Of a DNA stretch of 64,000 bases, positions 2,154 through 6,254 are shown in pieces (within the stretch, counting starts at the first letter, position 1; each line of letters starts with the position of its first letter). The DNA is taken from positions 1,178,001 to 1,242,000 of the forward strand of contig NZ_JAGKQQ010000001.1 of assembly GCF_017939745.1 (NCBI RefSeq). The letters run 5' to 3'. The notes below the pieces were generated by a model. The model made no database searches and was not told the DNA's origin. It saw only the letters and a program-made list of their open reading frames with translations. The position numbers and the translations under genes are program-made. The DNA is from Gemmata palustris. GTDB taxonomy: Bacteria > Planctomycetota > Planctomycetia > Gemmatales > Gemmataceae.

Positions 2154-3035
2154 TTAGCCCTTCACCAGTTCGTCCCACAACTTCTTGTAACCCTTCAAGA
2201 ACGCGGTTCCTTTCTCGACGTCGTAGGCGGTGCCGACTTCGCACAGCGTGTAGCGGTCGTAGCCGGTGTCGCGAAGGAGTTTGAACAACTCACGGTACGG
2301 GTACGTGCCCTTCGCGTCGTTCGTCAAATCATTGATGTGACACGATTTGATGTACGGCTTGAGCATCTCGAACCCCGCCGCCACGGACTTGTTCGCGATG
2401 TCGGTCCCGTTCGAGTTCCACGTCACGCCGACCTGTTTGTGGCCGCACGCCTCCATGATGGTCTTCATGTTCTTGGGGAGTTGCGTGACGGCCCCGTGAA
2501 CCTCGACCCAGATTTCGACGCCGGCATCGTCGGCTGCTTTACCGCACTCCCGGAGCGCTTTGCCGATCTGCTCGAAGGTCTTTTGCTCGTCGCCGCCCTT
2601 TGGAATACCGTTAGGGCGCACCTTCACACCCGTGCCGCCGATGTCGTGAACGAGCTTCACAAACGCCTTACAATCCTCAACGTTCTTTTTCACCACAGAA
2701 GGGTCGGCGGAGTGAAACTCGCACACGGTACCACACCCCCAAAACACGACGCCCGCGTCCGCGAACTGTTTTTTGACGTCCTTTCGCTGGTCCGCTGTCA
2801 GTGAGCACTCGACGCCGTGTTTGTGCGTCGTGCGGCACTCGACCGCCGCGATTCCGACGTCCTTGCACACCTTCAGAATGGTCGGTAGATCCCAATCTTT
2901 TGGCACGTTGTACGTCACGAGCCCGAGTTTGAACTTTGCGGCATCCTCAGCACCGTTTGCGAGCGCGGGCCACAAACTGCTAGAGGTCGCGGCCGCCCCG
3001 GTCGCAAGAAACGCACGGCGGGAAAGGGTGCTCAT
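2154..3035 (-). CDS. Tat-exported sugar phosphate isomerase/epimerase-like TIM barrel protein
   Basis: A 293-residue protein with a twin-arginine leader (LSRRAFLATGAAA) followed by a small-residue stretch and an Ala-x-Ala-like end (ALANGA). The mature part resembles the xylose isomerase-like TIM barrel family (AP_endonuc_2): GLVTYNV at strand 1, VECRT, a WVEVHG strand, VGVTWNSNGTD, the SCHINDL metal-ligand-type motif and a terminal LCEVG. Family members isomerise or epimerise sugars using a divalent metal held by Glu/Asp/His; several of those residues are visible, but the substrate is unknown. Planctomycetes encode many Tat-exported proteins of this type, probably for carbohydrate catabolism in the periplasm. 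Confidence 0.88.
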   Translation of the reverse strand: MSTLSRRAFLATGAAATSSSLWPALANGAEDAAKFKLGLVTYNVPKDWDLPTILKVCKDVGIAAVECRTTHKHGVECSLTADQRKDVKKQFADAGVVFWGCGTVCEFHSADPSVVKKNVEDCKAFVKLVHDIGGTGVKVRPNGIPKGGDEQKTFEQIGKALRECGKAADDAGVEIWVEVHGAVTQLPKNMKTIMEACGHKQVGVTWNSNGTDIANKSVAAGFEMLKPYIKSCHINDLTNDAKGTYPYRELFKLLRDTGYDRYTLCEVGTAYDVEKGTAFLKGYKKLWDELVKG

Positions 3036-3269: not shown

Positions 3270-5015
3270 TCATTTCTTGCTCTTCAACTCACGAACTTCT
3301 TTACGCAGTTCAGCAACTTCGCGAATCAGTAGGTCAAGTTTGGCTTCGGCTCCGTCCACCCGCGGTGCGGCAATTCCTTCGCGCTGAAGATTCAATCGTG
3401 TGATCTCGGCTTGCACCTTTCCGAGTGCGTCGCGCAATTCGACACAATCTGTCTCACATGCCCTTCGCATAGCGACAATGTCACGCGCACCGGCAAATGT
3501 TTCGTCGAGTGCTTTCGATACGGCGTCGCGTTTCGATTTCAGTGCCCCAAGGATTTCCTTTTGAATTTCGAGTTCTATCGACAATTTCGCAGCCCGCTCG
3601 CGCAGTGTTTGGAGGGCCTCGGCTTTGAGACGCGCAACAATCTCGGCCCGAACGACGCCCTGAAGGGCCGCACTGCGCTTTTCGAGTTCGGCGAGCTTCT
3701 CTTTTTGTTTTTGGATCGCGGGCGTCGTTTCACCGATGCCCAGCTCAACGGCCGTTCTCAACTCTTTCTGAGCAGACCGGAGTTCCGTTGACAAATCCTT
3801 GACCCGCGCGTCGAGGTTAATTTCCTGCTGAATCAAAGCGGCGTCGGGTTCGGGTGCGGGTTTCTCCGCACGCCTTTTGAGGACTGCAAATTCTGCTTCC
3901 ATTTTGAGAATTTCGCGACTCAATTTTTGATGTTCAGTCTCGATATCGTCGAACTGTTTTTGACCGACGGTACGCTGAGCTGTGTGCTTATCGATCACTT
4001 CCGCGAACTGTTCGATGCGATTTTCCAGCGCCCTGACTTGTTCTTTCAATTCACGAGCCTGCGATTCCAGCTTTTTCACCCGTTCGTCGCGAATCTTCTT
4101 ATCTTCATCGAGTGCTCCCGGTTCCGGCGGCTTGGGAGTTGTGTGGGCCGGTTCCGAGTTCGCGTTGGCGACGGGTGCAGCACCGTCTCCTACGGGTTCG
4201 GTCCTTGTGCCTTGCTGGGCCGCGACCCAACCGATCCCCGAAGCGAGTGCCACGGCAAGCAGGGTTCCGCTGAACGCGGTGAGTAGAGTACCACGATTCA
4301 TGGTTTGAATGACTCCTTCGGCGAGGTTAGTGGCAGGACCAGGGGTGTGCGAACCGAGTCGAAATCGGCGCGCGGTGGTAGTGGCCGAGGAAACGATGCG
4401 ACCGGTAAGACCGACGCCCGCGACCGAGATCGTTGCGGGTAAGGCGACCCCGTGGCGCGCGAGGCGCTCGGCCAGTCGCGTCCGCGCGGTTGCGAGGCGC
4501 GACAAGACCGTACCGCGCGGGCACCCGAGTTCGCGGGCCACGTCCTCGGTGGAGTGTCCGCCGAGGTAGCAGAGCACGACGGGCTTGCGGAGGCGCTCTG
4601 GGAGCCGGGCAACCTCTGCGTCGAGGAGGTTTGTGAGTTCCTGGCGCTCGACGGGATCGGGATTCGGTTCCGCGGCCGTTTCCGTTACGGGAAGGACCGG
4701 CCCGCGCCGCGAAGCAACCCGGGCCGAAACCCGGCGCGCGACTTTGAACAGCCAACCACCGAGGTTCCCGCGAACGCCCCCGGCTTTTCGTGCCAGTACG
4801 AGAAACACCGCTTGGAACGCATCCTCGGCGAGTTGTTCGTCGCGGATCGTGCGCCGGCACAATCCGAGAACCATCCCGCCGTGGCGCCAAACGAGTAACT
4901 CGAACGCCGCCTCGTCGCGGTCGCGGACGAACCGACGGAGCAACTCGGCGTCGGTCACACCCTGATCCGCGGCCCGACGGTGCCGGGCGAGCAATCGCTC
5001 CAAGAGTCCGCGCAT
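3270..5015 (-). CDS. ECF-type RNA polymerase sigma factor with membrane segment and coiled-coil tail
   Basis: The 581-residue product has three parts. Residues about 20-100 are sigma region 2 (LLRRFVRDRDEAAFELL; the DAFQAVFLVLAR recognition helix). Residues about 130-185 are sigma region 4 (LPERLRKPVVLCYLGG, then a helix-turn-helix with STEDVARELGCPRGTVLSRL). A basic Thr/Ser linker leads to one hydrophobic helix at about 240-262, and residues about 290-580 are almost continuous heptad-like coiled coil rich in Lys, Glu, Leu and Arg. Ordinary ECF factors are about 180-200 residues. Planctomycetes are known for ECF factors with long extensions, which may sense envelope signals in place of a separate anti-sigma factor. 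The N-terminal half should bind core RNA polymerase and a -35/-10 promoter; the role of the tail is inferred. No anti-sigma gene is adjacent. Confidence 0.9.
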   Translation of the reverse strand: MRGLLERLLARHRRAADQGVTDAELLRRFVRDRDEAAFELLVWRHGGMVLGLCRRTIRDEQLAEDAFQAVFLVLARKAGGVRGNLGGWLFKVARRVSARVASRRGPVLPVTETAAEPNPDPVERQELTNLLDAEVARLPERLRKPVVLCYLGGHSTEDVARELGCPRGTVLSRLATARTRLAERLARHGVALPATISVAGVGLTGRIVSSATTTARRFRLGSHTPGPATNLAEGVIQTMNRGTLLTAFSGTLLAVALASGIGWVAAQQGTRTEPVGDGAAPVANANSEPAHTTPKPPEPGALDEDKKIRDERVKKLESQARELKEQVRALENRIEQFAEVIDKHTAQRTVGQKQFDDIETEHQKLSREILKMEAEFAVLKRRAEKPAPEPDAALIQQEINLDARVKDLSTELRSAQKELRTAVELGIGETTPAIQKQKEKLAELEKRSAALQGVVRAEIVARLKAEALQTLRERAAKLSIELEIQKEILGALKSKRDAVSKALDETFAGARDIVAMRRACETDCVELRDALGKVQAEITRLNLQREGIAAPRVDGAEAKLDLLIREVAELRKEVRELKSKK

Positions 5016-5204
5016 GCAAACACCCCGATCATTTCCGGTTCAACAGAGAAGTGTCCACGAAGTGCGGAGCGATTCAAATTATTTTGCGGCGCGTCCGGTG
5101 GCCGCGGGTCACTCGTGCCGGGGTCTCTGTTCGGTCGGCGCGGGGACGGTTATTTTAAGCCCCACGCGCCGACACCAAACTCAGTGAGCGAGGACGGGAC
5201 AACC

Positions 5205-6254
5205 GTGACCATTGATCCAGAAGTCGCACGCATGGCGACGGCGGGGGCACTCGTCGCGGCAGTTGCGCTACCGGCCGGGTTAGTGGCTCGCGCGCTGCGG
5301 CCCGGGGGCGAACCGCTCCTCCCGCGGTGGAAGCCGTTTCCGGTGCCGTGGAGCGGTTTCGAGGTGACGGTCGCGGTCCTCGTGGTTTTGTTCGTCGTAC
5401 CGCCCGTGCTGTTTCAAGTATTGAACGAGAGCGGGTTCTATCAACTCGTCTACGGTGCCGAATTCCCGCCACTGGGAGCGAAGGACATTGATCCCGAGTT
5501 CAAGGCGGAAGCCGCCACGCTGCGGATGCTGTGGGCGGGTGTGCTCGCGCTGCCGCTTCAGCTCGGTGTGCTCGTGCTGACGCGCCACTCCCTTTACCCG
5601 ACGTGGCGGCCGCGGGCGAACGGGAGCGTCGCTGGGAAAGTTGCTCTCGCAGTCCTCGCCTGGAGCACCCTCACTCCGGTCGTGCTGCTACTGCACGCGG
5701 TCGTGAACACGGTCTCGCAGAACCTCGGTCTGCCCCCCGAGGAACACTCGCTCGCGAAGCTCGGAGGGCGCCCCCTACGCGATCAAGTTCTGCTCGTGTT
5801 GCAGGCGTGTGTGGGCGCTCCGTTGTGCGAAGAGATCATAGTTCGCGGCGTCATGCTCTGGTGGTGCGTGGGGCGCATGAAGTTTCCCGGTGCGGGCGTG
5901 TCACAGGTCACGAGTTTACGCCCGTGGATCATTATGTTCGTGGCCGCAGCGCTCGCGGCACAGAGCGGGAAATGGCAGCCGGTGGTCTGGGCGTGCGTGC
6001 TGGCCGCGGGGTTGGGCCTGCTGTGGCAGTTCACGCGAACCGGCGCGCGCCGGGCGCGAGCGGTGTACGCGACGGCCGCGTTCTTCGCGCTGATGCACTC
6101 CACCTGGCCGAATCCGATTCCGCTGTTCGTGTTGGGGCTCGGGTTGGGTTGGCTCGCGGTGCGCACCAACGGGCTCCTCGTGCCCGTACTCGTTCACGCG
6201 ATGTTCAACGCGGTGTCGGTGATCTTCGTGTTGCGCGGGGCACTGCCGGCGTGA
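5205..6254 (+). CDS. CPBP family intramembrane glutamic endopeptidase
   Basis: An integral membrane protein of about 349 residues with seven or eight hydrophobic helices and the three CPBP (CAAX protease/Abi) motifs: CEEIIVRG with the Glu pair at 209-210, FALMHS with His298, and HAMFN with His331. In this family these residues form the membrane-embedded active site that cleaves prenylated or other membrane proteins. The frame stays open upstream to 4980, overlapping the divergent sigma factor. I chose GTG 5205, preceded by AGGACGGGAC; GTG 5184 and ATG 5232 are alternatives. The sigma factor and this gene diverge and could share the roughly 190-bp control region. Substrate unknown. Confidence 0.88.
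   Translation: MTIDPEVARMATAGALVAAVALPAGLVARALRPGGEPLLPRWKPFPVPWSGFEVTVAVLVVLFVVPPVLFQVLNESGFYQLVYGAEFPPLGAKDIDPEFKAEAATLRMLWAGVLALPLQLGVLVLTRHSLYPTWRPRANGSVAGKVALAVLAWSTLTPVVLLLHAVVNTVSQNLGLPPEEHSLAKLGGRPLRDQVLLVLQACVGAPLCEEIIVRGVMLWWCVGRMKFPGAGVSQVTSLRPWIIMFVAAALAAQSGKWQPVVWACVLAAGLGLLWQFTRTGARRARAVYATAAFFALMHSTWPNPIPLFVLGLGLGWLAVRTNGLLVPVLVHAMFNAVSVIFVLRGALPA

Follow-up and report, generated by a model that had tools for sequence, protein, structure and literature searches.

How is an ECF sigma factor controlled when it is joined in one polypeptide to a hydrophobic helix and a long helical C-terminus, and no anti-sigma gene accompanies it? The question is raised by a gene on the minus strand (3270..5015) of a 64,000-nucleotide stretch of Gemmata palustris DNA, the whole of which is here called the window. 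A preliminary description proposed that its product might be a one-protein envelope-sensing regulator, and overlooked both an internal ribosome-binding site with its start codon (4319-4299, minus strand) and the membership of the gene in a family of at least 75. 'One protein' now looks wrong, since two products are to be expected from the conserved internal start. As judged from sequence, a gene of this planctomycete family, which is ECF57-like, probably specifies both a membrane-tethered sigma factor and, in the same frame, a sigma-less protein with a signal-anchor or signal peptide.

The window protein and its neighbours

The full-length product has 581 residues and comprises an ECF sigma factor, a linker, a membrane helix and a helical C-terminus. 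Both sigma70 regions that define the core of an ECF sigma factor are present: region 2 (PF04542) at residues 42-98 (4722..4892, minus strand), with Cys53 at 4857-4859, and region 4 (PF08281, E 2.9e-12) at residues 130-181 (4473..4628, minus strand), with Cys149 at 4569-4571. The TIGR02937 match scores 60.2 bits against a cut-off of 42.9. The hydrophobic helix, residues 244-262 (4230..4286, minus strand), has a mean Kyte-Doolittle (KD) value of 1.76 and lies, in AlphaFold2 models, inside one continuous helix of about 227-269 (ten-residue pLDDT means in the full-length model of 82-94 to residue 260 and 62 for 261-270; 88-96 for the helix when residues 1-270 are modelled alone). The union of sigma factor and hydrophobic helix in one ORF, as preliminarily described, is thus borne out.

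Past the helix comes a Pro/Ala-rich, low-confidence stretch (residues 269-300; 4116..4211, minus strand; pLDDT <50 for 269-295), and then a C-terminus (residues 301-580; 3276..4115, minus strand) which is modelled as nearly all helix (301-384, 392-401, 403-424, 432-545 and 556-580). The 290-residue coiled coil formerly assigned here therefore stands as regards helix, and its coiled-coil nature is likely but unproven, since no Pfam family passes the cut-off (E 0.001), the sequence matches to SMC coiled coils are weak and under cut-off, and the 3.5-residue hydrophobic periodicity is only moderately above that of shuffles (the fraction of shuffles matching it is 0.007 for 301-384, 0.028 for 392-424 and 0.081 for 432-545).

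A Pfam search of the 581 residues at E <=0.01, which a divergent domain could escape, detected neither a zinc finger nor any other anti-sigma domain. A predicted helix of residues 205-220 (4356-4403) sits between region 4 and the membrane helix. Foldseek/VIA comparison with the PDB matches the sigma part of the model to ECF structures, and its sigma2/sigma4 arrangement superposes on RseA-bound sigmaE (1or7_A) with an rmsd of 5.9 over 157, as against 25.7 over 164 for holoenzyme sigmaE (6jbq_F); other anti-sigma complexes fit less well than 1or7_A (SigW 5wur_A, 10.1 over 153; SigK 4nqw_A, 11.3 over 144). The linker helix might be a built-in inhibitor of the sigma part, a suggestion of little weight for a model with a pTM of 0.68 and without PAE.

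As had been claimed, no anti-sigma gene is recognised beside the gene, which is flanked by a CPBP gene and by one for a TIM-barrel isomerase-like protein. The latter (xylose-isomerase-like; downstream, 2154..3035, minus strand) adjoins every orthologue examined (L091, L092, L093, L119 and L120). The former (CPBP, Rce1-like; PF02517, E 1.6e-12) diverges from the sigma gene and, given as its longest ORF, covers 4980..6254 on the plus strand; the actual start probably lies past the overlap, further downstream. The pairing is retained in the close orthologues L119/L091 and L092, but no CPBP gene was found upstream of L093 (1.5 kb) or of L120 (3.7 kb). Of the 8 CPBP genes in the genome, the window's alone has a family member closer than 15 kb; the other seven are more than 15 kb from any member on contig C1, and none is on C2. 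As it is near one member in 75 and was not found beside L093 or L120, CPBP was rejected as a general partner of these sigma factors, and the link suggested earlier to the protease is not supported. Matches to M50 (site-2 type) proteases number four on C1, each more than 17 kb from family genes; a further one, C2:818181-818453, is about 5 kb from the family sigma gene C2:812000-812881.

A family of fused sigma factors

Searching the 9.2 Mb genome gave 97 matches, the best 75 of which correspond to 75 distinct ORFs, including that in the window, of 417 to 1254 residues (one runs off its locus). The figure is a lower bound, as the 22 weakest matches were left out and 43 of 193 candidates were unscored. 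The members share 38-57% identity with the sigma domain of the window gene. Cys53 is present in 67 of the 75 and Cys149 in 73, and the conserved cysteines fit group ECF57, beside which the family is set by described features. Among named relatives that have the window gene, Gemmata sp. IIL30 is nearest, with 72% identity in the best-matching segment.

Lack of conservation of the helix had been set beforehand as a possible refutation of tethering. The strongest hydrophobic segment past the sigma domain reaches a KD of at least 1.6 in 73 of the 75, the remaining two having 1.43 and 1.48. Lysine and arginine are more frequent in the 15 residues before the helix than in the 15 after it in 58 members, less frequent in 6 and tied in 11, as expected for an N-in/C-out protein. 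The family is marked, as its sequences show, by a fused architecture, a conserved hydrophobic helix and an inside-positive flank. Prediction, from this charge bias and from exported-type C-termini in sister genes, supports the proposal that the helix tethers the sigma domain and that the C-terminus lies outside.

The C-termini form 34 BLAST clusters. WD40 repeats (PF00400) are found in 14 of the 75 and PD40 in 18 (Pfam, E 0.001), the window member having neither. Other domains, 40 of the 75 having been scanned individually, are HlyD (L041, L075), secretin (L053, L056, L083), DUF1559 (L006), LRR (L057), BSP peptidase (L046), F5/8C (L032) and DUF1549 (L042), and many C-termini match no family. 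In L041:1468-3408 and L075 (gene ending at 3600) the sigma factor is fused to a HlyD/RND-type periplasmic adaptor. By eye, no pump gene was recognised among the ORFs of at least 200 residues at these two loci, so that a place for such members in efflux operons was rejected and no partner system there indicates a role for a short form.

Several family genes lie in tandem or near one another: L039 holds three, L064 and L031 hold two each, and L056/L085 are an opposite-strand pair at C1:7.67 Mb. Such grouping suggests local duplication. Sigma-like matches with in-frame stops (C1:7661646-7662413, C1:7828227-7829087 and others) are possible decayed members. The genome also holds 134 protein-kinase (PF00069) matches, a very large signalling repertoire beside the 75 sigma factors.

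A Shine-Dalgarno sequence and ATG just before the helix

Before the helix the window DNA reads GAAGGAG TCATTCAAACC ATG (4319-4299, minus strand), in frame. The Shine-Dalgarno sequence GAAGGAG (4313..4319), within codons for Glu-Gly-Val, is 11 nt upstream of the ATG of Met239 (4299..4301), the predicted second translation start. The 11-nt gap from GGAG to ATG exceeds the textbook optimum. By eye, the gene's own start has none of the three Shine-Dalgarno 4-mers in the stretch used for the test. The product of the internal start (3270..4301, minus strand) would have 343 residues, with a short basic n-region, the hydrophobic helix and the C-terminal domain, and without the sigma domain.

The motif L-A-x-G-V-x-x-x-M precedes the helix in many members and is common to genes with unrelated C-termini. 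A Shine-Dalgarno 4-mer followed by ATG occurs just before the helix in 41 of the 75 genes; of the ATGs at other positions in these genes, 39 of 450 have such a 4-mer. When synonymous codons are shuffled with the protein fixed, the 41 among 60 ATG-bearing genes (the 15 without an ATG near the helix being excluded) compare with an expected 10.9 ± 2.7 and a maximum of 20 in 1000 shuffles; on these shuffles chance alone would make about one fifth to one quarter of ATG-bearing genes positive. The codon for the motif glycine is GGA in 40 of 52 cases (77%), compared with 0-25% at 14 other listed glycine columns of the same alignment.

Outside this genome, 121 distinct homologues were drawn from 103 loci, and 115 were long enough for scoring, 6 of fewer than 300 residues being left out. 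The helix (KD at least 1.6) is present in 112 of the 115, an ATG in the region in 95, and the Shine-Dalgarno sequence with ATG in 77. For the same 95, the 20 genes without an ATG near the helix again being excluded, synonymous shuffling leads to an expectation of 26.0 ± 3.6 and a maximum of 37. ATGs elsewhere in these homologues have a Shine-Dalgarno 4-mer in 102 of 799 cases. The spacing is 11 nt in 60 of the 77 and 8 nt in 9. Part of this set was drawn by six peptide patterns, and one of these includes the motif (EGVIQTMN); it may enrich for genes with the motif, though not for a particular codon. Family members and orthologues are, besides, non-independent samples. At the internal ATG the Shine-Dalgarno rate (41/60; 77/95) is no lower than at the chosen gene starts (43/75; 73/121). 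Among far members of the phylum the raw count, without a shuffle control, is 11 of 22 (7 of 29, of fewer than 300 residues, being left out). The window gene and its orthologues L119, L092, L093 and L120 all have GGAG, 11 nt and ATG (5/5), and the C-terminal coil of these orthologues is only 25-60% identical.

Where the motif glycine has become glutamate (e.g. L160, L162, L170, L198) the DNA reads CAGGAGGT, keeping GAGG/AGGAGG at the same distance, which points to pairing with the ribosome being kept while the residue changes. Consistent with a tie between the two elements, the motif glycine is encoded by GGA in 92 of 109 genes where the methionine is retained and in 8 of 31 where it is absent (Fisher p 1.5e-9), a comparison that leaves out the 72 of 212 genes without the glycine and in which some of the 31 are probably chance matches to the motif. 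When methionines with a Shine-Dalgarno 4-mer are counted over 190 genes in bins of 6 residues, from −240 to +179 relative to the helix, 84 and 41 fall in the 12 residues just before it, and other printed bins hold 0 to 14. The share of methionine itself is 10.5% and 5.0% in these two bins, and 1.26% overall. There is a second small bump about 138-156 residues before the helix, in the sigma2-sigma4 linker (30 cases in three bins), which may reflect Arg/Glu-rich codons. In a control from the same genome (the best 30 of the 134 kinase matches, less 5 without a predicted helix), none of the 25 Ser/Thr kinases has the Shine-Dalgarno sequence with ATG; only 7 have an ATG in the region, and the hydrophobic stretch of some is near the C-terminus, so that the layout is only roughly like that of the sigma family.

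The second start is not universal, as by the same test 34 of the 75 genes and 38 of the 115 homologues elsewhere lack it. The largest C-terminal cluster, to which propeller types belong, has it less often (7/26, as against 34/49 elsewhere), so that these types, e.g. L027 and L044, may work differently. On a FastTree phylogeny of 212 sigma domains its presence or absence changes 52 times (a raw count, without a shuffle test, in which gain and loss are not separable), and the label is accordingly scattered. No unfused sigma gene ending before the helix was found among the 6 homologues of fewer than 300 residues, 4 of which run off the end of their locus and 2 of which look like ordinary short ECFs. 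Taken at the level of codon choice, there is nucleotide-level selection for a Shine-Dalgarno sequence and ATG at one site.

Two products from one gene, and the alternatives

On the two-product reading, ribosomes would initiate at the internal ATG just before the helix. The full-length protein would be N-in and C-out with its sigma domain at the membrane; the internal product would consist of a few residues, nearly always with one basic (K/R in 115 of 118 motif-bearing genes, D/E in 1 of 118), then the helix as signal-anchor or signal peptide, and then the outer domain. Because of the internal start, each such gene could yield a sigma-bearing and a sigma-less form of one sensor. The sigma-less twin, with the same helix and outer domain, may share, dilute or compete with the full-length sensor and so set its sensitivity, tuning the long form via a shared place in the membrane, oligomers or ligand; in the case of the window twin the likely coiled coil could oligomerise. 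The sigma domain may reach RNA polymerase by proteolysis, or may act while tethered. It is possible that the sigma-less form has another role, for instance as a structural or secreted protein. We lean, if only slightly, towards the wider proposal that over half of the at least 75 one-gene envelope sensors are dual-coding in frame, as are relatives across several planctomycete families, each for a membrane-bound sigma factor and a sigma-less twin, with the ratio of two ribosome-binding sites setting the response and separate anti-sigma genes being unnecessary.

That the gene has a single product, a tethered ECF sigma factor whose outer coiled coil senses the envelope and whose sigma domain is freed by proteolysis, with the internal Shine-Dalgarno sequence and ATG functionless, is unlikely. 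The conserved helix and charge bias suit it; in the account of PMC8999054, activation of a fused sigma factor by proteolysis has been established by experiment for IutY and is expected for ECF48, ECF52 (SCO4117) and ECF53; an M50 match (C2:818181) is about 5 kb from one member; and ECF sigma factors of Tuwongella are reported from detergent fractions (PMC8567305), weak evidence since SigA was there too. However, it leaves unexplained the GGA codon bias, the drop of that bias without the methionine, and the change of glycine to glutamate that keeps the Shine-Dalgarno sequence, and the protease proposed for it is near one of the 75 members. A separate alternative, that the helix fails to cross the membrane and leaves the protein in the cytosol, draws on the moderate KD of the window helix (1.76) and is very doubtful in the face of a KD of at least 1.6 in 73 of 75 and 112 of 115 proteins, a charge bias of 58 to 6 and the exported-type C-termini of sister genes.

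Shine-Dalgarno-like sequences within genes can affect elongation, and GGAG might act in this way rather than for a start, by causing a pause before the helix or by stimulating a frameshift that releases a soluble sigma factor; one alternative frame does stop after a median of 5 codons. This is highly improbable, for methionine itself is enriched at the site (10.5% and 5.0% against 1.26%), GGA is tied to it, and helix-bearing kinases are without the element (0/25; 7 with ATG). Frameshifting in particular was rejected, as no conserved slippery run is seen by eye in the aligned bases. Least probable is that the element is an unused remnant of a once separate gene for an exported protein. The internal N-terminus does resemble a signal-anchor with a basic n-region, and the C-termini are diverse and often of exported type, as if swapped onto one sigma module. 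Such a fossil should have decayed, yet GGA is kept at 77% in the motif column, where other glycine columns have 0-25%, among members only 38-57% identical to the sigma domain of the window gene, and the motif L-A-x-G-V-x-x-x-M is common to genes with unrelated C-termini.

For the preferred reading, of two in-frame products, a conserved second start in more than half the genes of one ECF family would be a concrete control mechanism, a built-in sigma-less partner, and bears on how Gemmataceae ECFs without an anti-sigma gene are controlled. If the internal start is used, dozens of proteins in each genome escape annotation that allots a single protein to every gene.

Much of the setting is already known from the descriptions cited here: the C-terminal extensions of ECF57, membrane-fused sigma factors and the Tuwongella ECFs in detergent fractions. 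ECF57 is described, with an example from the planctomycete Singulisphaera, as combining an ECF core with a long C-terminal extension, which in some of the group carries WD40-like repeats, and with a pair of conserved cysteines that might join sigma2 to sigma4 (PMC8999054). By description, the present family is alike in its core, two conserved cysteines, C-terminal extensions and WD40 in some members; the window member differs in its helical, not WD40, C-terminus. That description mentions no membrane helix or internal start, and ECF classification papers may describe the helix. The fused sigma/anti-sigma proteins, IutY (ECF243; proteolysis shown), SCO4117 (ECF52), ECF48 and ECF53 (proteolysis expected), likewise have a sigma domain and membrane part in one polypeptide, the helix being predicted here, and their description (PMC8999054) mentions no internal start; unlike them, the window protein has no Pfam-detectable anti-sigma domain between sigma4 and the helix. 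Gemmataceae are reported to carry many recent paralogues of ECF sigma factors, and in Tuwongella immobilis of that family five ECF sigma factors were in Triton or SDS fractions, as was SigA in detergent fractions (PMC8567305). Titles and abstract openings on internal starts or start-site mapping, a scope outside which the main ECF classification papers fall, report no internal start in an ECF gene.

Among proteins other than sigma factors, a second product from within a gene has precedent, and the short form of CheA is the product of an internal in-frame start. The gene for Spa33 also has an internal in-frame start (PMC6925163), and the full-length CTP1L endolysin is described in complex with a truncated C-terminal product (PMC4777826). 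The arrangement predicted here from sequence resembles these three in that one gene would have two in-frame products; it differs from them, as so described, in that the element recurs over dozens of paralogues in a single genome and in other planctomycete families.
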